Positions 28,299 to 51,164 of a stretch of DNA of 64,000 nt are shown here, piece by piece. Source of the DNA: Candidatus Parcubacteria bacterium. Lineage in GTDB: Bacteria > Patescibacteriota > Minisyncoccia > Minisyncoccales > JAGLPU01. Both the position numbers and the translations under genes were made by a program. Where the stretch lies: positions 1 to 64,000 of the forward strand of contig JAGLPU010000016.1 in NCBI GenBank assembly GCA_023137175.1. The letters run 5' to 3'. Within the stretch, counting starts at the first letter, position 1, and every line of letters begins with the position of its first letter. Under the pieces are notes generated by a model. It saw nothing but the letters and a program-made list of their open reading frames with translations. It did not search any database and had not been told where the DNA came from.

Positions 28299-29264
28299 AT
28301 GTTAAGCGATATTGATTTAAAAACAAAGAAAATACTAATTACCGGAGCGCATGGATTTTTAGGCAGGCATTTAGTGAAGAATTTATTGGAAAAGAGAAAA
28401 GTTCCTAAAGAGAATTTGTTTTTGCCTTCTGTTGAGGATTTGGATTTTAAAAAATGGGAGAATTGCCAGAAAGCTGTTGTAGGTCAAGATATTGTTATTC
28501 ATCTGGCTGCCATGGTCGGAGGTATTGGCGCGAATCTAGAAACCCCTGGGGAATTTTTTTACGACAACATTATAATGGGCGTTCATTTAATGGAAGCATC
28601 TCGCCAAGCCGGAGTGGAAAAATTTACGGCACTCGGAACAATATGCTGCTATCCGAAATTTACTCCTATTCCTTTTAAAGAAAAAGATTTATGGAGCGGT
28701 TATCCCGAAGAAACAAATGCTCCTTATGGTTTAGCCAAAAAAATGCTTTTAGTTCAGGCGCAAGCGTATAGGAAACAATACGGATTTAACGCTATTTACC
28801 TTTTGCCGGTCAACATGTATGGACCTGGCGACTCGTCCAACCTTAAAAAATCTCATGTTGTGGCAGCCATAATCAGAAAAATCTATGAAGCAAAAAAAGA
28901 CAACAAAGACTATATTGAGGTATGGGGGACTGGCAAACCAACTCGGGAATTTCTTTATGTGGAAGATGGAGCAGAGGGAATTATATTAGCAACCGAGCAT
29001 TATAATAAACCAGAACCAATCAATATCGGCGCAGGCAAAGAAATTTCCATTAAAGACTTAGTTGAATTAATTTGTGATTTAATGGATTTTAAAGGAGAAA
29101 TTCGCTGGGATAGTTCAAAGCCGGACGGCCAGCCCCGCCGTTGTTTAGACACTTCAAAAGCAAAAAAAGAATTTGGTTTTGAGGCAAAAGTTGATTTCAA
29201 AGAAGGGCTTAAAAGAACCATTCAGTGGTATAAAGAAAAAATAGAACAAAACTATGAATGTTAA
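28299..29264 (+). CDS. fcl: GDP-L-fucose synthase-like epimerase/reductase
   Basis: The 321-residue SDR protein has LITGAHGFLGRHLV (NADP loop), HLAAMVGGIGAN and NMYGPGD, all features of GDP-L-fucose synthase (WcaG/Fcl), with catalytic Tyr-Lys in APYGLAKKM. It would convert GDP-4-keto-6-deoxymannose to GDP-L-fucose. The usual GSSCIYP motif with the catalytic Ser is GTICCYP here, a form seen in related enzymes, so Thr may replace Ser or the product may differ. The gene overlaps the flippase gene by 11 bases. The function is well supported by context, the exact product less so. Confidence 0.82.
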   Translation: MLSDIDLKTKKILITGAHGFLGRHLVKNLLEKRKVPKENLFLPSVEDLDFKKWENCQKAVVGQDIVIHLAAMVGGIGANLETPGEFFYDNIIMGVHLMEASRQAGVEKFTALGTICCYPKFTPIPFKEKDLWSGYPEETNAPYGLAKKMLLVQAQAYRKQYGFNAIYLLPVNMYGPGDSSNLKKSHVVAAIIRKIYEAKKDNKDYIEVWGTGKPTREFLYVEDGAEGIILATEHYNKPEPINIGAGKEISIKDLVELICDLMDFKGEIRWDSSKPDGQPRRCLDTSKAKKEFGFEAKVDFKEGLKRTIQWYKEKIEQNYEC

Positions 29265-30729
29265 TAATTTTTCCGGGATTAAAGCTATTCTTTTTGATAA
29301 TGTGACGGTCAAACAAACAATATTTAAAAATACATTTTGGCTGGCCATAGGAAGCGGCGTTAATAAATTATTAATGTTGGTTCTGCTAATATACGCCGCT
29401 AGGATTTTAGGCGCTGTTGAGTATGGAAAATTTAGTTTTGCGTTTGCTTTTATATCGTTGTTTGTTGTTTTCCACGATTTTGGATTATCCACGACGATTA
29501 TTCGCGAATACGCTAAAAAACAAGAACAAAAAGGAAAGGAAGAATTTTATTCCATTATTTCTCTAAAGGTTTTTTTAAGTATAACTGCCTTTATTTTAAT
29601 TCTAATTGGTTCCTTTTTCATCACTGCCGACCCCAGTATCAGAAATATTATTTTGATTTTGACCTTTTTTAGCTTATTCAATAGTTTTATCGCTATTTTT
29701 TATGCTGTTTTTCAGGCTCGCCAGAAAATGGAATACCAAACATGGCTGGAAATGTTTCAGTATCTGTTAATAAGCGGCTTGGGCATTTTTATTCTGTTTA
29801 ATTTTCCGTCAGCCGCAAACTTAAGTTATGGTTATTTGATTGCCGGCTTAATCTCTTTAATTTCTGTATTGATTTTCTTTAGCATAAAAATATTTAATTT
29901 AAGAATTTTTTGGCAACGTTCAGTCTGGAGAAAATATTTAAGAATGTCCTGGCCGTTAGCGTTAACGAGTTTATTCGGCTTTCTTTATTCTTATATCGAC
30001 TCGGTAATGATGGGTTATTGGGGAATGATTGCGCAAACCGGATGGTATAATGCGGCATACCGAATTATTTTTGTGGCATTGATCCCCATGGGCTTGATTT
30101 CAGGAAGTTTTTATCCCGTGTTAAGCAAGTTTTTTAAAGAATCAAAAGAAAAGCTCCAAAAGATTTGGGATTTTCAATTACAATTGATGATTTTATTCTC
30201 TTTGCCGCTGGTGGTGGGTGGAATAGTGCTGGCTCCCAGGATCATTCATTCTTTTTATCCTTCTGATTTTTCTCCTTCCATTTTGACTTTTCAGATTTTA
30301 ATTGTGATGGCTGGCCTTATTTTTCTTTACCGCCCATTTTTTGATGTTATGATTGCTTCCAACCAACAAAAGAAAACATTTTGGATCACGTTGTTGGGTT
30401 CATTGGCCAATATATCGTTAAATTTATTTTTAATTCCTGAATATGGCCTATATGGAGCAGCGCTAGCAACTGTTGCCACTTGTATGTTAACTCTTTTAAT
30501 AGGCATTTGGCTCACAATAAAATCAACTTCCATCCGAATTCCTTGTTTAAAGCTTTTTTATTCTTTTGTATTGGCGAGCTTGTCCAGTATTTTAATGTGT
30601 TTTGTGATAGCCAAACCCATAATTTATAATCTTAACATTTTTCTTTCTGTTCCGATTGGAGCTTTGTCATATTGTTTTTGCCTTTTTTCCATGTATAGAA
30701 TAACAAAACCGATTTATGAAAAAATCTAA
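29254..30729 (+). CDS. Wzx-type flippase
   Basis: The 491-residue protein has about 12-14 hydrophobic segments and the polysaccharide-biosynthesis/MVF family N-terminus (FKNTFWLAIGSGVNKLL, YAARILGAVEYGKFSFAFAF, FGLSTTIIREYA). The family moves undecaprenyl-linked repeat units across the membrane. It overlaps the genes on both sides (11 and 14 bases), so expression is tied to sugar synthesis. Two Wzy-like proteins (24260, 49911) and the Wzz-type gene at the window end would complete a Wzy-dependent pathway. Confidence 0.88.
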   Translation: MNVNNFSGIKAILFDNVTVKQTIFKNTFWLAIGSGVNKLLMLVLLIYAARILGAVEYGKFSFAFAFISLFVVFHDFGLSTTIIREYAKKQEQKGKEEFYSIISLKVFLSITAFILILIGSFFITADPSIRNIILILTFFSLFNSFIAIFYAVFQARQKMEYQTWLEMFQYLLISGLGIFILFNFPSAANLSYGYLIAGLISLISVLIFFSIKIFNLRIFWQRSVWRKYLRMSWPLALTSLFGFLYSYIDSVMMGYWGMIAQTGWYNAAYRIIFVALIPMGLISGSFYPVLSKFFKESKEKLQKIWDFQLQLMILFSLPLVVGGIVLAPRIIHSFYPSDFSPSILTFQILIVMAGLIFLYRPFFDVMIASNQQKKTFWITLLGSLANISLNLFLIPEYGLYGAALATVATCMLTLLIGIWLTIKSTSIRIPCLKLFYSFVLASLSSILMCFVIAKPIIYNLNIFLSVPIGALSYCFCLFSMYRITKPIYEKI

Positions 30730-34422: not shown

Positions 34423-35469
34423 ATGAAGAAGATTAGAATAAGAAACAAATCAATAGGAGAAGAGAGTCCTTGTTTCATTATTGCCGAAGCAGGCGTTAAC
34501 CATAACGGCGATTTAGGATTGGCTAAAAAATTAATTATAGCGGCAAAACAGGCAGGCGCTGACGCTATAAAGTTTCAAACCTTTAAAGCAGAAGATTTAG
34601 TTTCCAAAAGCGCTAAAATGGCGGATTATCAGAAAAAAAATATCGGTAGAAAAGAGAGCCAATTGGAAATGCTGAAAAAACTGGAATTAAGTAATTCAAA
34701 CTTTAGAGAACTGAAAAAATACTGTGATGAAAAAAACATTATTTTTCTTTCAACCGCTCATACGGAAGATGCTGTTGATTTTTTAAATCCTTTGATCCCT
34801 GCCTATAAAGTTGGTTCAGGGGATTTAACAAATTTGCCTTTTCTGGAAAAAATAGCCAGAAAGAAAAAGCCAATAATTTTATCAACGGGAATGGCTGTTT
34901 TAAATGAGATTAAAGAAGCTTTGGAAGCGATAAAAAAAACAGGGAACAGCAAGATAATCCTGCTCCACTGCACAACCAATTATCCTTGCCCGTTAGAGGA
35001 AGCAAATTTAAGAGCAATACAGACCATGGAAAAAGAGTTTAATCTGCCTGTTGGTTATTCAGACCATACTTCGGGAATTATGGTTTCAGTTACGGCAGTG
35101 GCAACAGGAGCAGTTGTTATTGAAAAACATTTTACTCTAGACAGGAATTTATCCGGTCCGGACCATAAGGCGTCTTTAGAGCCTGACGATTTGAAAAAAA
35201 TGGTAAAGGAAATCAGAGATGTGGAAAAAGTATTGGGCAGCGCAATCAAAAAGCCAAGCAAAAGCGAAGAGAAAATTAAAAAAGTTGCCAGAAAAAGCAT
35301 TGTTGCCAAAACTGATATTTTGAAAAACACTAAGATAACCAAAGAAATGTTGATTATTAAAAGGCCTGGAACCGGAATTTTACCCAAACATTTCAATAAA
35401 GTCATTAACAGAATTGTTAAAAAAAACATAAAGCAAGACGCATTAATTGAATTTAAAGATTTGAAATGA
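34423..35469 (+). CDS. neuB: Nonulosonate synthase (NeuB/LegI/PseI family)
   Basis: The 348-residue protein has the NeuB TIM barrel (about 15-255): EAGVNHNGD, KFQTFKAEDLVS, HCTTNYPCP, GYSDHTSG and EKHFTLDRNLSGPDH. A C-terminal SAF/antifreeze-like domain (about 285-345, KSIVAKTDILKNTKITKEML) follows. It condenses PEP with a six-carbon N-acyl-mannosamine-type sugar to form a nine-carbon acid. All motifs are present. It starts a run with NeuC-type hydrolase/epimerase, acyltransferase and aminotransferase, overlapping the next gene by 4 bases. The product is probably a diacylated sugar such as legionaminic acid, as inferred from those partners. Confidence 0.9.
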   Translation: MKKIRIRNKSIGEESPCFIIAEAGVNHNGDLGLAKKLIIAAKQAGADAIKFQTFKAEDLVSKSAKMADYQKKNIGRKESQLEMLKKLELSNSNFRELKKYCDEKNIIFLSTAHTEDAVDFLNPLIPAYKVGSGDLTNLPFLEKIARKKKPIILSTGMAVLNEIKEALEAIKKTGNSKIILLHCTTNYPCPLEEANLRAIQTMEKEFNLPVGYSDHTSGIMVSVTAVATGAVVIEKHFTLDRNLSGPDHKASLEPDDLKKMVKEIRDVEKVLGSAIKKPSKSEEKIKKVARKSIVAKTDILKNTKITKEMLIIKRPGTGILPKHFNKVINRIVKKNIKQDALIEFKDLK

Positions 35470-36596
35470 GAAAGATTCTATACATTTCAGGAACAAGAGC
35501 GGATTATGGTTTGATGAAACAAGCTTTACTTGCCATAAACAAGCGTTCAAAATTGGAAATAGCGACTACGGGCATGCATTTGATGCCGGAATTTGGCGAG
35601 ACAATAAAAGAGATTGAAAAAGATGGCTTTAAGATCCATCAAATAGACGCAGTTTACAAAGATGACAGCAGAGAATCAAGCTCTTGCTTCATCGGCAGAT
35701 TTATTCAATTGCTTAGTGAAAGAATTAAAAAAATAAAGCCTGATATGATTCTGGTTTTAGGAGATAGGGCTGAAATGCTGGGGGGAGCGATAGTCGGAGC
35801 ATATTCAGGAATTCCGGTTGTTCATATTCATGGAGGCGATTTAAGCTCTACTGTTGATGAAATTGTCAGGCACGCCATAACCAAATTGTCGCATTTTCAT
35901 CTTCCCGCGACTAAAGCGGCCGCTGAAAGGATAATCAAGATGGGCGAAAATCCTTGGAGAGTGTCTGTTGTCAGCGCGCCCGGGCTGGATGGCATTTTAG
36001 ATACCAAATTATTTTCTGAAAAAGAAATAGCAAAAAAATATAAATTAGATTTTAGCAAACCCGTTTTGTTAACAGTGCAACATCCGGCAGAAGGAGACAA
36101 AAAACAAATAAAGGAAACAATGGAGGCGATAAAAGAAACAGGTTTTCAAACCGTTGTAATTTATCCCAACGCTGACGCCGGGGGCAGGGAAATGATAAAA
36201 ATAATTGAGCAATACAGAAAATATTCATTCATTCAAATTTATAAAAGCCTTCCCCGTAAAGACTATTTAAGCTTAATGAAAGCGGCGAGCTTGATGATTG
36301 GGAATTCCAGTTCAGGGATAATAGAATCTTCAGCCTTTCGTTTGCCTGCAGTTAATATAGGGTCAAGGCAAAAAGGAAGGGAGAGAGCGGAAAATGTTAT
36401 TGATGCGGGATACGATAAAAAACAAATTAAAAAAGCTATCCAAAAGGCGCTTTATAACAAAAAATTTAAAGAAAAAGTTAAAAAATGCAAAAATCCTTAC
36501 GGAAACGGCAAAGCGGGAATAAAAATCGCCGGCTTATTAAGCAAAATTAAAATTGACAATAAGCTATTGCAAAAACAAATAATTTATAAACTTTAA
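35466..36596 (+). CDS. neuC: UDP-sugar hydrolysing 2-epimerase (NeuC/LegG family)
   Basis: The 376-residue GT-B-fold enzyme has GTRADYGLMK, LGDRAEMLGGA, HIHGGDLSSTVDE, VQHPAEGDKKQI and the UDP-binding GNSSSGIIES, the set typical of hydrolysing UDP-GlcNAc 2-epimerases. NeuC makes ManNAc from UDP-GlcNAc, while LegG makes 2,4-diacetamido-trideoxymannose from UDP-diNAc-bacillosamine. The neighbours favour the LegG role. It starts inside the neuB stop codon (ATGA), so the pair should be made in step. The three-residue spacing and the length are normal. Confidence 0.88.
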   Translation: MRKILYISGTRADYGLMKQALLAINKRSKLEIATTGMHLMPEFGETIKEIEKDGFKIHQIDAVYKDDSRESSSCFIGRFIQLLSERIKKIKPDMILVLGDRAEMLGGAIVGAYSGIPVVHIHGGDLSSTVDEIVRHAITKLSHFHLPATKAAAERIIKMGENPWRVSVVSAPGLDGILDTKLFSEKEIAKKYKLDFSKPVLLTVQHPAEGDKKQIKETMEAIKETGFQTVVIYPNADAGGREMIKIIEQYRKYSFIQIYKSLPRKDYLSLMKAASLMIGNSSSGIIESSAFRLPAVNIGSRQKGRERAENVIDAGYDKKQIKKAIQKALYNKKFKEKVKKCKNPYGNGKAGIKIAGLLSKIKIDNKLLQKQIIYKL

Positions 36597-38476: not shown

Positions 38477-39821
38477 AAAAACTGAACCAAAAATACTGTT
38501 TTATACTTCCATTCCCAGATCTTTTTACACGACCTTGATAGGCTATCTCTACGAGATTTCCCAAGTTTATCCCGTAGTTTTATTATCCGAGAACCTAGAT
38601 CCAGCGATAGCTAAACTTTTAGAAAAAAAAGATATCTTTCCTAAATTGGAAATCATTGTTCCTATTAAACAGTATACTGGAAAAAAGAGGAATGCATTTT
38701 CCAAAAATTATTATCTTTACAATTTGGCGAAAAATATTGTTAAAGAGCATAAACCAAACATTGTTATAACGGCAAACGATGTATATCCTTTTGAAATGTA
38801 TTTAATGAGATTTGCCAAGAAAATAAACGCCGTTAATGTATGCTTTCAGAGTGCTCTTCAGGAAAAAGACATAAAAGAATTGGTTCTTTGGTCCAACCTT
38901 TCAAATGCCTATCTTCAGTATCCTAAAATATTGCCATTGAAATTGAGATTATTTTTTTCAAGATTGAAGAAATTTTTCGGACATATTTTTTTCTATTGGA
39001 TGCTTCCGTTAATGGTGGGAGAAAGGCCGTTCTTGGGCAAATCAAGTTTTATTATTTGGAAAAACAGCCTTTCTCTCCAAATTGCCGATTATCAAACTGT
39101 TTTTTCGGAAATGAATTATAATCTTTGCGTGGAAAACGGCTCTTCATCGGAAAAAGTTCTTATTCTGCCTCATCCCCTAGAAAGTGAATCTAGAGAAATT
39201 TTTAAAGAAATGAATCTTTTAGAATTATCACCAGAAGTGAAAAAAGAAAATAAAATGATAGTCATAATGTGGCCGGCCGAAACAGTCAGTTTTAGAAGGA
39301 GCGATTATTCGTTAATTTCAAAAGAGGAATTATTAGAAGAAAGAATAAAGATTGTTGCATTGATTAATCAAACGCTTAACAATTGGAAGATTATTATAAA
39401 ACCGCATCCTGTGGTTAAAAATGATGAGAAGTTGTTTCAAGAAATAACCCATAGGATTGCATCAATTTCCAAAAAGATTGAAATTATTGACCCTAATGCG
39501 CCTGCGGAAAAATATATGGAAATGAGCGATGTTATTGTGGGAATGCCTCCCGCGAGCACAACGATTTTTATTGCCTCACTGCAATCTCCAAAAAAGCCGA
39601 TTCTATCTTTAGATTTGAACAAAGAGCTTATGGGAGATTATTATGACAATTTTAAGGGCATTGAATACATAGATAATAAAACAAAATTTGCCAGTATTTT
39701 AGAATTAATTCGAAACAACAAATATCATAAAAAAAATAAAATAAGACCAAAAGAAAAAGAATTTTCAAACAGTGTTTCTTTATTACGTTATTTATTTGAT
39801 AAAAAGTATGAACAAAAATAA
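38469..39821 (+). CDS. GT-B-type glycosyltransferase-like protein, possible nonulosonate transferase
   Basis: The 450-residue protein is not a family I can name with certainty. Its C-terminal half has WKIIIKPHPVVKNDEKLF, then IIDPNAPAEKYMEMSDVIVG and MPPASTTIFIASL. The HP motif and the later Ser/Thr-rich loop are features of bacterial polysialyl/sialyltransferases and CDP-glycerol transferases. One hydrophobic stretch (about residues 170-185) might bind membrane. It lies directly after the nonulosonate genes, overlapping the CBS-aminotransferase by 8 bases, which supports a role as CMP-sugar transferase. This is inference from motif and position. Confidence 0.6.
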   Translation: MIKKTEPKILFYTSIPRSFYTTLIGYLYEISQVYPVVLLSENLDPAIAKLLEKKDIFPKLEIIVPIKQYTGKKRNAFSKNYYLYNLAKNIVKEHKPNIVITANDVYPFEMYLMRFAKKINAVNVCFQSALQEKDIKELVLWSNLSNAYLQYPKILPLKLRLFFSRLKKFFGHIFFYWMLPLMVGERPFLGKSSFIIWKNSLSLQIADYQTVFSEMNYNLCVENGSSSEKVLILPHPLESESREIFKEMNLLELSPEVKKENKMIVIMWPAETVSFRRSDYSLISKEELLEERIKIVALINQTLNNWKIIIKPHPVVKNDEKLFQEITHRIASISKKIEIIDPNAPAEKYMEMSDVIVGMPPASTTIFIASLQSPKKPILSLDLNKELMGDYYDNFKGIEYIDNKTKFASILELIRNNKYHKKNKIRPKEKEFSNSVSLLRYLFDKKYEQK

Positions 39822-42024
39822 TAATATAAAAATTTTAGCCACGCTGGGACCGGCTTCAATGGAAAAATCAATTGTTCAGAAAATGGATTCTTCAGGCGTG
39901 GATATATTTCGAGTTAATCTTTCTCATACAAAAACAAAGGATTTTAACGGTATTATTGAAAAAATTCGCAGTTGGACAAAAAAGCCGATATGTGTTGACA
40001 CTGAAGGGGCTCAAATTCGCACGGGAAAAATCAAGAATGGTTTCACGGTGATAAAAAGAAATAGTATTATTTCACTGGCAAGGGCGGATGTTTTAGGAAA
40101 CGAATCTTGCATCCCATTGTATCCTGTTCATCCTGAAGAGACTTTAAAAACAGGCGATATTTTGTATATTGATTTTAATTCTGTTGCCATACAGATTATT
40201 AAAATAGAAAAACAAAAAGTTTTGGCAAGAGTTTTGTTTGGAGGAAAGATTGGCTCAAATAAAGGAGTAAACATAGATAGGACGGTCAAGCTTCCGGCCT
40301 TAACTGAGAAAGATTGGAAAATACTCAAGCTCTCCAAGAAATTGAAATTATCTCATTTTGCTTTATCGTTTGCTTCAAGAAAAGAAGATGTTGAAAAGTT
40401 AAGGAAGTTTTTCCCTTATCCCGTTTTTATAATCAGCAAAATAGAAAGCAGGGCCGGGTTGAATAATCTTGAAGACATTTGCCAGCAAAGCGATGCGATT
40501 TTGATAGATAGGGGAGATTTGTCGAGGGATGTGCCTCTGCAAAAAATAGGACTTGCTCAAAGATATATCCTGGATATTGCCAAAAAAACAAAAACACTTT
40601 CTTTCGTGGCAACAAACTTATTGGAAAGTATGCTCACCAATCTTGAACCAACCAGAGCCGAGATAAACGATATTACATCTACTTTGCTTTCCGGAGCAAA
40701 CGGGTTGGTGCTGGCGGCTGAAACAGCTATTGGGAAAAATCCAATAGAGAGTGTCAGAATGATTTCAGGAGTGATGCAAGAAACGGAAAAATATATTTCC
40801 AATAATAAAAAAAATGATATTCGAAATTGTCTTGGCTCTATTCACAGTTATAGTCTGATTAATCCACATGGAGGCGTTTTAATTCAAAACTTTATAGATT
40901 TTAATAAAGTTGAAGATATTAAAAATTTGCCGACGATAGACATAGACGAACAAACACTTTCAGATGTTGTCCAAATCGCGGAGGGGACATATTCTCCGCT
41001 TAAAGGATTCATGGATCATGACGAGTTAATATCTGTTCTCCAAGATTACAAGCTGCCTAATGGAGTTGTTTGGCCGCTTCCCATATTATTGCAGTTAAAC
41101 AAAGAAGACATTAATTTTTCTCAAAAAGATTTAATAGCTTTGCGTTGGAAAAAGGACAAGAAGATTTATGCTGTGATGAAAGTGTCCGGCACTAGGAAAA
41201 TCAATATTTCCGATATAGCAAAGAAATGGTTTGGGACTGAAGATATAAGACACCCGGGAGTCGCTTATTTTGCGAAGAGAGGAAATTATATTATCAGTGG
41301 TGAAGTATTCCTTGGGGAAAAACCATCTTTTTTCTCCCATTCATACAGCTTGAATCCGCGGCAAACAAGAAACATTTTCAAGGATTACGGATGGCAGAAG
41401 ATAGTCGGCTTCCACACTAGGAATGTGATTCATCGCGGGCATGAATTTATCCAGAAACAGGCCTTAAAATCAGTCAACGCGGATGCTTTATTTATCAGCC
41501 CTGTAGTCGGATTTAAAAAACAAGGAGATTTTTCAGCTGAAGCGATATTAAAAAGCTACGAGGTTATGCTGAATAATGATTATTATGCTCCTTTTGGGAC
41601 ATTATTGGGAACCTTTAACACCTATTCAAGATACAGCGGGCCAAGAGAAGCGATCTTTACCGCTCTTTGCAGAAAGAATTTCGGCTGTACTCATTTTATT
41701 ATAGGAAGAGATCATACGGGAGTAGGCGATTATTATTCTCCCAATGCCTCCCAAGAACTTTTTCATAAATTGGGCGATATAGGGATTGTTCCCTTGATGT
41801 TTGACACTGCTTATTATTGTGAAGTTTGTAAAAAAACAACAACAGACTGCGCTCATGACGAAAAAAACAAAAAAGGACTAAGCGGGACAGAAGTTCGCAG
41901 ATGCTTGTTGAATAATATAGACATAGAGGAATATTTGGTGAGAAAAGATATTGCGGCGGCGTTGCGAAAGATGTATAAGGTTTGCAAGGATGATGTATTT
42001 AAGAATAATAAACAAAACAAATGA
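39808..42024 (+). CDS. Pyruvate kinase-like/ATP sulfurylase fusion
   Basis: The 738-residue protein joins a pyruvate kinase A/B-domain unit (about 5-330) to an ATP sulfurylase (about 340-730). Kinase residues visible are Arg35 (FRVNLSH), Asp64-Thr65 (DTEGAQ), Lys211/Glu213 (SKIESRAG), Asp237 (RGDL) and Thr269 (ATNLLESM). The kinase C-terminal regulatory domain is missing, and the usual DTKG is DTEG. Sulfurylase motifs are GFHTRNVIHRGHE (534-546), GRDHTGVG (633-640), SGTEVR (692-697) and a CxxC-x6-C-x-H zinc-type cluster (671-683). It would make APS from ATP and sulfate; the kinase half may regenerate ATP from PEP. I know of no characterised protein like this. ATG 39808 overlaps the previous stop; an earlier start at 39772 is less likely. 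Confidence 0.85.
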   Translation: MNKNNNIKILATLGPASMEKSIVQKMDSSGVDIFRVNLSHTKTKDFNGIIEKIRSWTKKPICVDTEGAQIRTGKIKNGFTVIKRNSIISLARADVLGNESCIPLYPVHPEETLKTGDILYIDFNSVAIQIIKIEKQKVLARVLFGGKIGSNKGVNIDRTVKLPALTEKDWKILKLSKKLKLSHFALSFASRKEDVEKLRKFFPYPVFIISKIESRAGLNNLEDICQQSDAILIDRGDLSRDVPLQKIGLAQRYILDIAKKTKTLSFVATNLLESMLTNLEPTRAEINDITSTLLSGANGLVLAAETAIGKNPIESVRMISGVMQETEKYISNNKKNDIRNCLGSIHSYSLINPHGGVLIQNFIDFNKVEDIKNLPTIDIDEQTLSDVVQIAEGTYSPLKGFMDHDELISVLQDYKLPNGVVWPLPILLQLNKEDINFSQKDLIALRWKKDKKIYAVMKVSGTRKINISDIAKKWFGTEDIRHPGVAYFAKRGNYIISGEVFLGEKPSFFSHSYSLNPRQTRNIFKDYGWQKIVGFHTRNVIHRGHEFIQKQALKSVNADALFISPVVGFKKQGDFSAEAILKSYEVMLNNDYYAPFGTLLGTFNTYSRYSGPREAIFTALCRKNFGCTHFIIGRDHTGVGDYYSPNASQELFHKLGDIGIVPLMFDTAYYCEVCKKTTTDCAHDEKNKKGLSGTEVRRCLLNNIDIEEYLVRKDIAAALRKMYKVCKDDVFKNNKQNK

Positions 42025-42545
42025 TTATTTGGTTCACAGGATTATCAGGAGTTGGAAAGACGACATTGTCTGCCGGCTTGAAGAAAAAATTGGGAGAAAC
42101 GGATTTTTCCGTTTTTCAAGTTGACGGAGATATTGTTAGGAAAGAACAGAATATTAAAAATACATTTTCAAAAGAAGAGATTTTAGAAAATAATTATAAT
42201 ATAATATCTTATTGTGAATCAATAAAGAAGGATTATGATTTCATTATTGTTTCAGTGATTTCTCCTTTTCAAGAAACCCGGGCAAAAGCCAGAGAGATGT
42301 TTAAAAAAGATTATTTGGAAATATTCTTGTCTTGCCCCTTAAAAGAACTGCTTAAGCGAGATCCAAAAAAATTGTATGCAAGGATGCTTGCCGGAGAGAT
42401 TAAAAATCTAATCGGTTTTTCAGAGCAAAATCCCTATGAAGTTCCCAAGAATCCTGACATAATGATTAATACAGAAAAGGACAATATTGAGAAATCGTTG
42501 GAAAAAATAATAAATGTGATTAAAAATAATAATTATGACAAATAA
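42021..42545 (+). CDS. cysC: Adenylyl-sulfate kinase (APS kinase)
   Basis: The 174-residue kinase has the P-loop GLSGVGKT (7-14), QVDGDIVRK, VSVISPFQETRAKARE, IFLSCPLKELLKRDPKKLYA and GEIKNLIGFSEQNPYEVP, the sequence of landmarks of CysC. It phosphorylates APS to PAPS, the sulfate donor. Length is normal. The gene starts in the stop of the ATP sulfurylase fusion (ATGA) and overlaps the sulfotransferase gene by 11 bases, so sulfate activation and use are encoded as one coupled block. Assimilation to cysteine through PAPS reductase is not suggested by the context, since no reductase gene is present in the window. Confidence 0.9.
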   Translation: MIIWFTGLSGVGKTTLSAGLKKKLGETDFSVFQVDGDIVRKEQNIKNTFSKEEILENNYNIISYCESIKKDYDFIIVSVISPFQETRAKAREMFKKDYLEIFLSCPLKELLKRDPKKLYARMLAGEIKNLIGFSEQNPYEVPKNPDIMINTEKDNIEKSLEKIINVIKNNNYDK

Positions 42546-43287
42546 CGAAGAAAAAGTAGTGTTAATAGCGGACTACGGCAGGTCAGGACAAGGCTGGCTG
42601 AGCTATATGCTTTGCCATATACTCAACGCTAAATATATTGAACCATATTTCTTTTTAAAAGGTGCTCTTTACACCGAGAATAAAGAGCTGCGAGACTTGA
42701 CGAGCGGGAAATTGCCCAATAGAGAAAAAACGCAGTATTCAATGGTAATAAAAACACACGAACTGCCGGCAGTTGACTTTAACTTGACAGACAAAGTCAT
42801 TTTTCTGATGCGAGACCCGAGAGATGTTGCAGTATCCGCTTATTTTATGTATAGAGTTACTTTTAAAAAAGAAGGCAACAAATCCATTAAAAACACAATT
42901 TTTTATTTAATACACCGGTTTAAACCAACAAGCTTTATTCTAACGGCCCTAAGATGGAGAAGGTTTTTTAGGGCATGGGCAGGAAGAAAAGACATTGATT
43001 CTCATTTTGTTAAATATGAAGATGTTTCGTTGAATACGGAAAGCACATTAAACGGCATATTGGATTATTTAGGCATTAAGGCTCCCACAGCTATTGTTAA
43101 GGAATCGATTGAAAACTTTTCTTTTGAAAAACTATCCGGACGAAAAAAAGGAAAAGAGAGTGTTGCCAATCCAACCTTTAGAAAAGGAATAGTCGGAGAT
43201 TATAAAAACAATTTTTCAAAAATAGATTTAATGATATTTAAGTTTATTTGCGGAAAAGAAATGAAAAAAATAAATTATCTTTTTTGA
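42535..43287 (+). CDS. PAPS-dependent sulfotransferase
   Basis: The 250-residue protein has the sulfotransferase 5'-phosphosulfate loop DYGRSGQGWL (13-22), the 3'-phosphate motif FLMRDPRDVAVSAYF and the C-terminal FRKGIVGDYKN, which matches the RKGxxGDWKN signature of PAPS sulfotransferases. A conserved His (KTHELP) is in the position of the catalytic base. No signal peptide or membrane span is visible, so it acts in the cytosol. It would transfer sulfate from PAPS to a sugar of the lipid-linked or nucleotide-linked glycan, or to another acceptor. Substrate is inferred only from the location among glycan genes, between APS kinase and a methyltransferase. Confidence 0.88.
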   Translation: MTNNEEKVVLIADYGRSGQGWLSYMLCHILNAKYIEPYFFLKGALYTENKELRDLTSGKLPNREKTQYSMVIKTHELPAVDFNLTDKVIFLMRDPRDVAVSAYFMYRVTFKKEGNKSIKNTIFYLIHRFKPTSFILTALRWRRFFRAWAGRKDIDSHFVKYEDVSLNTESTLNGILDYLGIKAPTAIVKESIENFSFEKLSGRKKGKESVANPTFRKGIVGDYKNNFSKIDLMIFKFICGKEMKKINYLF

Positions 43288-49063: not shown

Positions 49064-49911
49064 CTCTGTTTACCATTCCAAAACCTTTTCAAGGCCATAT
49101 CAATGTCATTCAAAGGAATGCTATCCAAAGCTGGCTTAAGCTTGAGCCGAAATGCGAAATTATTTTATTCGGCGATGACCAAGGTGTTGCCGAAGCTGCC
49201 GGTGAATTTGGCGTTCGCCATATTCCGGGAATTGAAAAAAATAAGCTGGGCACTCCTCTTTTGGATTCCGCATTCAACCTTGCTCAAAAAACAGCTAAAA
49301 ATGATATTTTAGTCTATATCAATGCGGATATTATTTTAATGAGCGATTTTGTTCCAGCCGTAAAAAGAATTAAATTTCCTTTATTTTTAATGAATGGCCG
49401 GCGCTGGGATTTGGATATAAAAGAAGAGATTAATTTTGACAAGCCTGATTGGGAGAAAAATATGCGGGCGAAAATAGCCGAAAAAGGGGAGCTGCATGGT
49501 TTTTCCGGCATTGATTATTTTGTTTTTCCTCGTGATTTTCAGTACAACCTTCCTTCGTTTGCGGTTGGCCGGCCAGGATGGGACAACTGGTTGATTTATC
49601 ATACTCGCTGTTTAAAAACGCCGATAATAGACGCGACAGAGGCGATTGATATTGTCCACCAAAATCATGATTATTCTCATTCTAATTTTGGGAAGAAGAA
49701 AAGAGTGGAGGGGCCGGAACTTCAAGAAAACATTAAATTAGCAGGCGGTTTTTCTCATTTTTGCACGCTCAGGGAGGCGGACTGGATTCTTACTCTGGAA
49801 GGAATTAAAAGGCCGAAATTTTCCAGACGAATTTTTTCTAAATTGTCTTTATTCTACCCGTGGCGGCTGTTGCTTTCAATTAAGAGAAAACTTCAAGAGT
49901 TTTTAAGATAA
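49057..49911 (+). CDS. Putative GT-A-type glycosyltransferase
   Basis: The 284-residue protein has a GT-A-like core: LTLFTIPKPFQGHINVIQRN, KCEIILFGDDQGVAE, VYINADIILMSDFVPAV (N-A-D in place of DxD) and a C-terminal HQNHDYSHSNFG with histidines that could bind metal. It resembles uncharacterised proteins of plants and bacteria annotated as glycosyltransferases, but the donor is unknown. No membrane helix is visible; the basic C-terminus (KLSLFYPWRLLLSIKRKLQE) may bind the membrane. The gene overlaps the one before by 7 bases and the one after by a single base. Confidence 0.6.
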   Translation: MLTLFTIPKPFQGHINVIQRNAIQSWLKLEPKCEIILFGDDQGVAEAAGEFGVRHIPGIEKNKLGTPLLDSAFNLAQKTAKNDILVYINADIILMSDFVPAVKRIKFPLFLMNGRRWDLDIKEEINFDKPDWEKNMRAKIAEKGELHGFSGIDYFVFPRDFQYNLPSFAVGRPGWDNWLIYHTRCLKTPIIDATEAIDIVHQNHDYSHSNFGKKKRVEGPELQENIKLAGGFSHFCTLREADWILTLEGIKRPKFSRRIFSKLSLFYPWRLLLSIKRKLQEFLR

Positions 49912-51164
49912 TGAAGAAAGCATGGTTTGAAAATTTGCCATTAATTCTTTTAGCCGGAGCCATTGCTTTGTCTCCGAGTTTTTTAGTGGGAAAAGTTGAA
50001 GGGCTTGATAAAATTATTGAAATAAGGATAGAAGACATTTTAATAGCGATTTTAGGATTGGTTTGGATAGCCAATTTTTTAATCTCAGGCAGGAAAAGCA
50101 TAAAAAAACCGCCCCTATTTTTACCCATGCTGGCATGGCTGAGCATAGGATTTATAGGCTTGCTGACTAATTGGATTTTTGAGAATGTCACGCTTAGCCG
50201 CGGATTTTTCTATTTCCTAAAAGATGTTGAATTTTTCTTTTTATATTTTTATCTTTTCTATCATATAAAAAGCATTGATTCGGTTAAATCCATTGTTAAA
50301 TTTTGGATAATTCTTGGATTAGCCAATGTTGGCTATGTTATTTATCAAATTATTACAGGCGTTCAGCCGGGAGAGTACGGAACCGCTGCTATTTGCGAAT
50401 GGGGAGTTTTTCCAACAGGGGCTTTTTTCATACTTCTTTTTATTTTTTTAGTTAATATTTCTTTATATTATTTTTTTCCGTTTTCTCCTTTTAAAAAAGC
50501 GATTGTGATGATAATTACTATGAGCCTAATTATCGGCGTTATCGGCGCAGCTTCAAAAACTGTTTTCTTGGGTCTTATCATCGCGATATCTTTAACTTTG
50601 TTCCTTTGGTTTTTTAAAGAAAAAAAATTAAAAAACATTCTGCCGCTTATTTTAATTTTAATTTTTATTTCCGGTATTTTTGTTTTTACTTTTAAGGGCG
50701 TCCCAGTGGCGCATCGAATAGCTTTTATATTTGAGTCTGATAATCTTCTTTTAAATTATCAGGCTGGAAGGCTTGACACGGCCATAAAACCTCAACTTGA
50801 AGAGGCATTAAAAGCTCCATTATTTCTTCCGTTTGGTTTTGGCAAAGGCGCTATTTTAGCTCTTGAGGAAAGCCATAACCAATATTTGCGTAATCTGGTT
50901 GAAAACGGAATTGTCGGGAGTGTTATATTTTTCTTTTTAATTTTTGCCATAATCAAAAAATCTTTTCAAGGATTTTTAAAGAGTAAAGACGGGCTTACGG
51001 TTGGGTTGTCGGCTGGACTTTTTATCGCTACCTTGATTATGCTCTTTTTTTCCTTTGCCACTGAACCTTTTATGGTAGTGAAGCCATCTGAGGTTTATTG
51101 GTTTTTTACAGCTTTAACAATGGCTGTTTTAACTTTAAAACAAGAACGAAATGTGATAAAATAA
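49911..51164 (+). CDS. Wzy-like O-antigen polymerase/ligase
   Basis: The 417-residue membrane protein has about 11 hydrophobic segments and the family loop PLFLPFGFGKGAILALEESH, then NQYLRNLVENGIVGSVIFF, where the ESHNQYL matches the conserved H-N of Wzy_C/O-antigen ligases. It would polymerise the repeat units flipped by the Wzx protein at 29254. The protein at 24260 belongs to the same superfamily but lies on the other strand, so one may polymerise and the other ligate. This one is embedded in the main operon and is the better polymerase candidate. Confidence 0.8.
   Translation: MKKAWFENLPLILLAGAIALSPSFLVGKVEGLDKIIEIRIEDILIAILGLVWIANFLISGRKSIKKPPLFLPMLAWLSIGFIGLLTNWIFENVTLSRGFFYFLKDVEFFFLYFYLFYHIKSIDSVKSIVKFWIILGLANVGYVIYQIITGVQPGEYGTAAICEWGVFPTGAFFILLFIFLVNISLYYFFPFSPFKKAIVMIITMSLIIGVIGAASKTVFLGLIIAISLTLFLWFFKEKKLKNILPLILILIFISGIFVFTFKGVPVAHRIAFIFESDNLLLNYQAGRLDTAIKPQLEEALKAPLFLPFGFGKGAILALEESHNQYLRNLVENGIVGSVIFFFLIFAIIKKSFQGFLKSKDGLTVGLSAGLFIATLIMLFFSFATEPFMVVKPSEVYWFFTALTMAVLTLKQERNVIK

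Follow-up and report, generated by a model that had tools for sequence, protein, structure and literature searches.

The 64,000-nucleotide stretch analyzed here (the window; positions 1 to 64,000, forward strand, of contig JAGLPU010000016.1 from a Candidatus Parcubacteria bacterium) contains a gene in which a pyruvate kinase (PK)-like domain is joined to an ATP sulfurylase (SAT). The gene overlaps a gene for an APS kinase by 4 bases, which in turn overlaps a sulfotransferase gene by 11 bases, and the 3 genes lie within a glycan locus. The features are as follows:

29254..30729, + strand: polysaccharide flippase (Wzx type), glycan locus (PF01943, 1.4e-37)
34423..36596, + strand: NeuB-family synthase and UDP-GlcNAc 2-epimerase genes, glycan locus (PF03102, 5.5e-102; PF02350, 4e-82)
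39808..42024, + strand: PK-like/ATP sulfurylase fusion gene, 738 aa, single frame (PF00224, PF14306, and PF01747)
39823..40755, + strand: PK barrel (A and B domains) without C-terminal domain (PF00224, aa 6-316, E 2.4e-61)
40507..40524, + strand: DRGDLS signature of SAT-linked PKs (ARGDLG in ordinary PKs), A243D
40609..40617, + strand: ATN signature (ATQ or ATH in ordinary PKs), Q279N
40813..40851, + strand: flexible linker between the halves, aa 336-348 (pLDDT <50 in the AlphaFold2 model)
40858..41310, + strand: PUA_2 domain of the sulfurylase (PF14306, aa 351-501, E 1.4e-36)
41341..41970, + strand: ATP sulfurylase catalytic domain (PF01747, aa 512-721, E 2.5e-70)
41413..41424, + strand: HTRN motif (QTRN in unlinked sulfurylases), Gln to His
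41704..41718, + strand: GRDHT motif (GRDHA in unlinked sulfurylases), Ala to Thr
42021..42545, + strand: APS kinase gene, 174 aa (PF01583, E 3.3e-37; TIGR00455, 146.5 bits, cut-off 138.7)
42535..43287, + strand: sulfotransferase gene, 250 aa (PF00685, Sulfotransfer_1, E 9.6e-24)
49911..51164, + strand: O-antigen ligase/polymerase-like protein, glycan locus (PF04932, 6.6e-7, slightly below the Pfam cut-off)

The fusion frame comprises 750 aa if started at an upstream GTG. Both PF14306 and PF01747 scored above their cut-offs, which places the second half in the ATP sulfurylase (Sat) family; the protein passes one SAT model (NF003166, 390.8 bits, cut-off 387) and lies below the cut-off of another (TIGR00339, 304 bits, cut-off 323). 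The Pfam search found no PK C-terminal domain in the window fusion, as a previous reading of the sequence alone had stated, and the score against the PK equivalog TIGR01064 (269.3 bits) is under the cut-off of 306.4. For these reasons, we refer to the domain as PK-like. An AlphaFold2 model, a type of check put forward with the sequence-only reading, showed 2 well-folded halves (mean pLDDT 89, pTM 0.73), with values mostly above 85 on either side of the linker. In Foldseek searches, these halves matched pyruvate kinases and a solved ATP sulfurylase (8a8d), respectively, the latter with a TM-score of 0.93 by target length. The zinc-site cysteines are kept in the window protein, in agreement with its earlier description as a zinc-type sulfurylase, and are missing in most distant fusions.

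With matches to PF01747, PF01583, and PF00685, the 3 overlapping genes do form the complete set for sulfate activation and transfer that had been recognized. The gene order including the sulfotransferase is repeated in 4 other loci (L043, L044, L045, and L058). The SAT and APS kinase are encoded by separate genes in the window and reside on a single chain in 10 relatives. The placement in a glycan locus is likewise borne out by the NeuB-family synthase, the UDP-GlcNAc 2-epimerase, the Wzx-type flippase, and the O-antigen ligase-like protein, alongside which the locus encodes a cytidylyltransferase, GDP-mannose dehydratases, DegT aminotransferases, and glycosyltransferases.

The fusion had been presented as a single, unusual case. 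The fusion itself is real, since the 738-aa frame with its 3 Pfam domains is repeated elsewhere, but it is a member of a widespread family that includes triple fusions. In total, 38 distinct PK-SAT fusion loci were counted, consisting of the window and 37 others (L068 duplicates L046 and was not counted; contig ends truncate L084 and L086). Within the order of the window genome, 4 further genomes among 247 carried the same fusion, as ORFs of 737-749 aa. One more (G391) came from 380 genomes sampled at the phylum level; it is a triple PK-SAT-APS kinase fusion of 916 aa, with a CysQ-type phosphatase gene downstream. A one-genome-per-species scan with alignment A1 yielded about 35 loci. Of 237 genomes sampled from the phylum to which the Pacearchaeota genome G640 belongs, 6 encoded a SAT within an open frame longer than 750 aa. 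The loci carry labels from the CPR (Nealson-, Staskawicz-, Colwell-, Yanofsky-, Harrison-, Falkow-, and Komeilibacteria), DPANN (Pace-, Woese-, Micr-, and Nanoarchaeota), and other groups (Rhodospirillales, Bacteroidetes, Nitrospirae, Negativicutes, Elusimicrobia, and Anaerolineaceae), though MAG labels can mislead for single contigs.

The fusion is also present on 2 complete rhizobial plasmids, of Sinorhizobium chiapasense and Ensifer adhaerens CTYH.Ch1 (NZ_CP118611, about 774652-776838), where it has an APS kinase alongside and adjoins an O-antigen-ligase-sized membrane protein. The window protein is 54-68% identical to fusions from independent assemblies, and 42-43% identical to those of the 2 plasmids over 97-100% of the protein. 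Together, the independent assemblies and complete plasmids rule out an assembly artefact at the junction, a concern raised with the sequence-only reading.

Across the 38 loci, APS kinase is fused to the same chain in 10 (the triple fusions) and encoded by a separate gene of the locus in a further 21, while none was found in the visible stretch of 7. About half of the loci (approximately 21) contain sulfotransferase genes. The association also occurs without fusion. In G045, a complete PK gene of 469 aa is directly followed by a SAT gene, and a split form (L092) contains a SAT, a 360-aa PK barrel, and an APS kinase inside about 4 kb, where a single further gene separates the SAT from the PK. 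These unfused forms suggest a path from a neighboring complete PK, through loss of the C domain, to a double and then a triple fusion. In addition, viral contigs carry genes for barrel-only PKs with the DRGDL/ATN signature (L116:4995-5972, L117:463-1263, L118:4995-5951, L119:603-1556, L120:4581-5516, and L157:501-1238), which in L117 and L120 lie directly downstream of sulfotransferase genes. In some of these viral PKs, the B domain, which forms the lid of the PK site, is reduced or lost. PK matches in annotated phage records were set aside, as these are mostly unannotated faecal contigs and may represent ordinary bacterial PKs.

Several other arrangements were observed among the scanned loci. 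The viral PK of L120 is followed by a 123-aa nucleotidyltransferase-like ORF (L120:5494-5865), which, together with a P-loop kinase of L116 (L116:2613-3065), matches opposite halves of PHROG 10255 (230 aa, "kinase"); the pair may represent a small-scale phage version of the sulfurylase and APS kinase. In a Woesearchaeota record, an APS kinase and a CysQ-type phosphatase form one 440-aa protein (L074:11036-12358), with a PK-SAT fusion and 2 sulfotransferases nearby. In G497, the fusion and a second APS kinase are neighbored by a CysQ-like gene (C28:1329-2084) that has one in-frame TGA and is read as 2 ORFs in L042. Finally, SAT-APS kinase proteins of Desulfobacterales and related organisms (L097-L115) have broken GRDH motifs, and their sulfurylase domains are apparently inactive.

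The PK half retains the catalytic apparatus of the family. In E. coli PykF numbering, all fusions with data share R32, N34, S36, H37, D66, R73, K156, K220, E222, R244, G245, D246, and E314 without exception, T278 is kept in 38 of 39, and the linked PKs retain all residues for binding the PEP phosphate, Mg2+, and the nucleotide phosphates. In a solved PEP complex, the PEP phosphate is held by Arg54 and Lys248 (PMC10338316), which, by our own reading of the motifs, would correspond to R32 and K220. In the pocket of the window protein, the canonical ARGDLG and ATQ motifs are replaced by DRGDLS and ATN. Every SAT-linked PK carried A243D, including 39/39 fusions, the unfused G045 and the split L092, as did 5/5 viral PKs, and Q279N was found in 39/39 fusions and 5/5 viral PKs; neither substitution occurred in any of 19 ordinary PKs. 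Ser312 is missing from most SAT-linked PKs, a loss not seen in ordinary PKs. The canonical catalytic residues would fit a domain that makes ATP from PEP, yet A243D and Q279N are fixed in its pocket.

In a phylogenetic tree of the PK domains, 38 fusions and 4 viral PKs fell on one side of a branch with an SH-aLRT support of 95, opposite 14 ordinary PKs that included the second PK of the window genome. Support for this branch was 99 when the split L092 was added, and a tree in which all SAT-linked PKs were grouped, including that of G045, was not worse (p-AU 0.81). The SAT-linked PKs are thus compatible with a single clade apart from ordinary PKs, and convergence of A243D in G045 and L092 need not be invoked. 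The viral PKs may lie either inside or outside the fusions (p-AU 0.54). An origin of the fused domain by recent duplication of the host PK was rejected, since the ordinary PK of the window genome sits in another clade.

The sulfurylase half shows a similar mixture of retained and altered positions. Both histidines of the HxxH motif are present in 38/38 fusions, and GRD in 37/38 (HRGHE and GRDH in the window). The exception, from a Rhodospirillales MAG (L061:5998-8172), has degenerate sulfurylase motifs (YTHN and GSDYA) and intact PK motifs. In a MAG labelled Nitrospirae (L087:4484-6683), the fusion gene is broken across 2 frames and its SAT motifs are odd too, pointing to either decay or sequencing error. 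The Gln of QTRN is replaced by His in 37/38 fusions, as well as in G045 and L092, and kept in 14/14 unlinked SATs; because the one-genome-per-species scan was run with the IVGFH motif, its matches are partly selected for His, and the contrast rests on fusions from whole-domain searches (L042-L046, L151, and L152) compared with unlinked SATs found likewise. At the Ala position of GRDHA, 36/38 fusions have Thr or Ser and 14/14 unlinked SATs keep Ala; reference SATs likewise retain both Gln and Ala. In the ATP sulfurylase of Allochromatium, the residues Gln199 and Ala299 make contact with the sulfate group of APS (PMC3779200). The window sulfurylase appears to have a variant active site within the SAT family, in which the canonical sulfate-contacting Gln is absent.

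The SAT tree placed the fused SATs in one group (95), sister to the SAT of G045 (93) and distinct from the unlinked SATs, and grouping all PK-linked SATs was not worse (p-AU 0.47). Distant phyla are intermixed in both the PK and the SAT tree, which fits horizontal spread. The PK and sulfurylase sites depart jointly from the usual pattern, and the 2 sets of changes may be functionally linked.

The metabolic setting was surveyed in the genomes carrying these genes, where all counts of absent genes are limited by MAG incompleteness. The SAT-linked PK is the only PK match, whole or fragment, in 30 of 40 genomes; the window genome and 9 others encode a further PK, whole or in part. As the one in the window genome is an ordinary PK (L018), the fused PK is dispensable for glycolysis there. 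No PAPS reductase was found in the window genome, extending the earlier statement that no sulfate reductase lies nearby, nor in 30 of the 40 genomes searched, so that PAPS is probably used for sulfation and an assimilatory role is unlikely. Enolase was detected in 21 of 29 genomes. The window genome has both an enolase and a PPDK/PEP-synthase domain, so that PEP can be made, while neither was matched in G391, G635, G658, G660, G661, G664, and G667, several of which are incomplete MAGs. Soluble PPase PF00719, the pyrophosphatase family searched, was not found in 21 of 29 genomes and is present in the window genome.

We propose that the fusion acts first in a module dedicated to PAPS synthesis and, through it, to sulfation of a surface glycan, and that its PK-like half regenerates ATP from PEP, a proposal whose chances we consider about even. 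The sulfurylase half would convert ATP and sulfate to APS and PPi, a reaction that in ATP sulfurylase is endergonic, with its equilibrium far to the left (PMC3734648). The APS kinase, neighboring here and fused elsewhere, would then phosphorylate APS to PAPS with release of ADP; this enzyme forms an enzyme-ADP-APS dead-end complex (PMC3734648). Beside both ATP-using sites, the PK-like half would use PEP to turn this ADP back into ATP, and this local coupling, by removing ADP and restoring ATP, would draw the reaction chain forward at the expense of PEP, while the sulfotransferase would consume PAPS on the surface glycan. Loss of the PK C domain would free the enzyme from glycolytic control. 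The sequence-only reading had coupled the PK directly to the sulfurylase. This part did not hold, since the sulfurylase yields PPi and the ADP comes from the APS kinase, which would be the direct coupling partner and the step at which the pull of PEP must act. Overall, the observation of the fusion is confirmed, and its earlier interpretation partly supported.

Several features argue against a role in ATP regeneration. Fixed A243D and Q279N and the loss of Ser312 are foreign to ordinary PKs, and mere ATP supply does not account for the changes in the sulfate pocket of the sulfurylase. In addition, there are the 7 genomes without enolase or PPDK/PEP synthase (several being incomplete MAGs), the 7 loci without a visible APS kinase, and the loss of the B domain in some viral members. 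As the pocket changes may mean another reaction, we hold the PEP-regeneration reading with moderate confidence. Its serious rival is a changed enzyme, which would use a phosphoryl donor or acceptor other than PEP or ADP and be coupled through its chemistry to a sulfurylase whose own reaction is altered. We regard this as a possible, though less than probable, explanation, consistent with the presence of A243D in every SAT-linked PK and no ordinary PK examined, of Q279N in all fusions and viral copies, and of His for Gln and Thr or Ser for Ala at the sulfate contacts of the linked sulfurylases, including those of the unfused G045 and split L092. The reduced B domain of viral copies and the fusion genomes without a visible PEP source point the same way. 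However, the residues for the PEP phosphate, Mg2+, and nucleotide phosphates are all kept, the normal PAPS route is complete, since most fusions have an APS kinase, and common ancestry of the linked PKs could alone explain their shared signature. A bolder and rather doubtful extension is that the PK-descended enzyme and the ATP sulfurylase co-evolved into a single machine with two sites. Sulfate activation would then be powered by a phosphoenol donor through a chemistry different from plain regeneration of ATP. The matched changes in the pockets of both domains would be the trace of this, and viruses would carry the PK part to support sulfation.

Alternatively, the PK-like half could be mainly a regulatory or scaffold domain that switches the sulfurylase on or off upon sensing PEP or ADP/ATP. 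There is precedent in Penicillium, where the ATP sulfurylase is gated by a fused, inactive APS-kinase-like pseudo-enzyme domain (PMC13213808). Unlike in a pseudo-enzyme, the catalytic lysine, acids, and arginine are invariant here across deep divergence, and the PK domain also occurs free-standing beside sulfotransferases, making this role unlikely. We find it very improbable that the fusion is simply the glycolytic pyruvate kinase of the cell, joined to the sulfurylase by chance and kept. While the lack of another PK in 30 of 40 genomes would fit, the window genome and 9 others do have a separate PK or fragment, enolase is missing in 8 of 29 genomes, and the link to sulfation genes is steady in distant lineages and viruses.

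To our knowledge, few drivers of APS synthesis are known, namely pyrophosphatase, APS kinase, reduction, and a GTPase partner. A partner acting through PEP would add to this list, with a distribution across CPR and DPANN, and a PK relative dedicated to sulfate-activating enzymes suggests an undescribed way of powering sulfate activation. The cell surfaces of CPR and DPANN organisms are central to their life on host cells, and we know of hardly any studies of sulfation in these groups. The homologues in cultured rhizobia make the question directly testable. If active, the triple fusion would combine PAPS synthesis and ATP supply on one chain, which would be of use in enzymatic sulfation.

Reported partners of ATP sulfurylase, fused or cooperating, are APS kinase, pyrophosphatase, and a GTPase (PMC3734648, PMC13213808), and a passage of an archaeal fusion survey gives only a split case for Sat (PMC11237513). 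We found no description of a PK partner in the openly licensed literature, in line with the earlier claim of novelty; domain databases may list the architecture automatically.

The closest known systems each share part of this architecture. The archaeal/Thermus-type Sat (PDB 8a8d, 1v47; 39-40% identity to the SAT part, at the TM-score of 0.93 by target length) has the same PUA_2 and catalytic domains and the HxxH, GRD, and SGT motifs, to which the fusion adds the N-terminal PK-like domain, with His for the Gln of QTRN and Thr for the Ala of GRDHA. E. coli PykF has the A and B domains and all main catalytic residues in common with the PK-like half, which differs in its missing C-terminal domain, its score below TIGR01064, its DRGDLS/ATN signature, and its separate clade. 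Bifunctional SAT-APS kinases (PRK05537, PDB 2gks) and animal PAPS synthases place the 2 activation steps on one chain, as do the triple fusions; the PK-like domain is extra, and in the window the APS kinase is a separate, overlapping gene. CysDN, a GTPase-coupled ATP sulfurylase, uses a second energy source for sulfate activation, with unrelated folds and with GTP hydrolysis where PK-SAT would use PEP. This GTPase class is mentioned in a previous study (PMC3734648). In the APS kinase-ATP sulfurylase-pyrophosphatase of diatoms and stramenopiles, a third domain likewise aids the thermodynamically poor step (PMC3734648, PMC13213808), but that partner removes PPi, whereas the PK-like partner would remove ADP.
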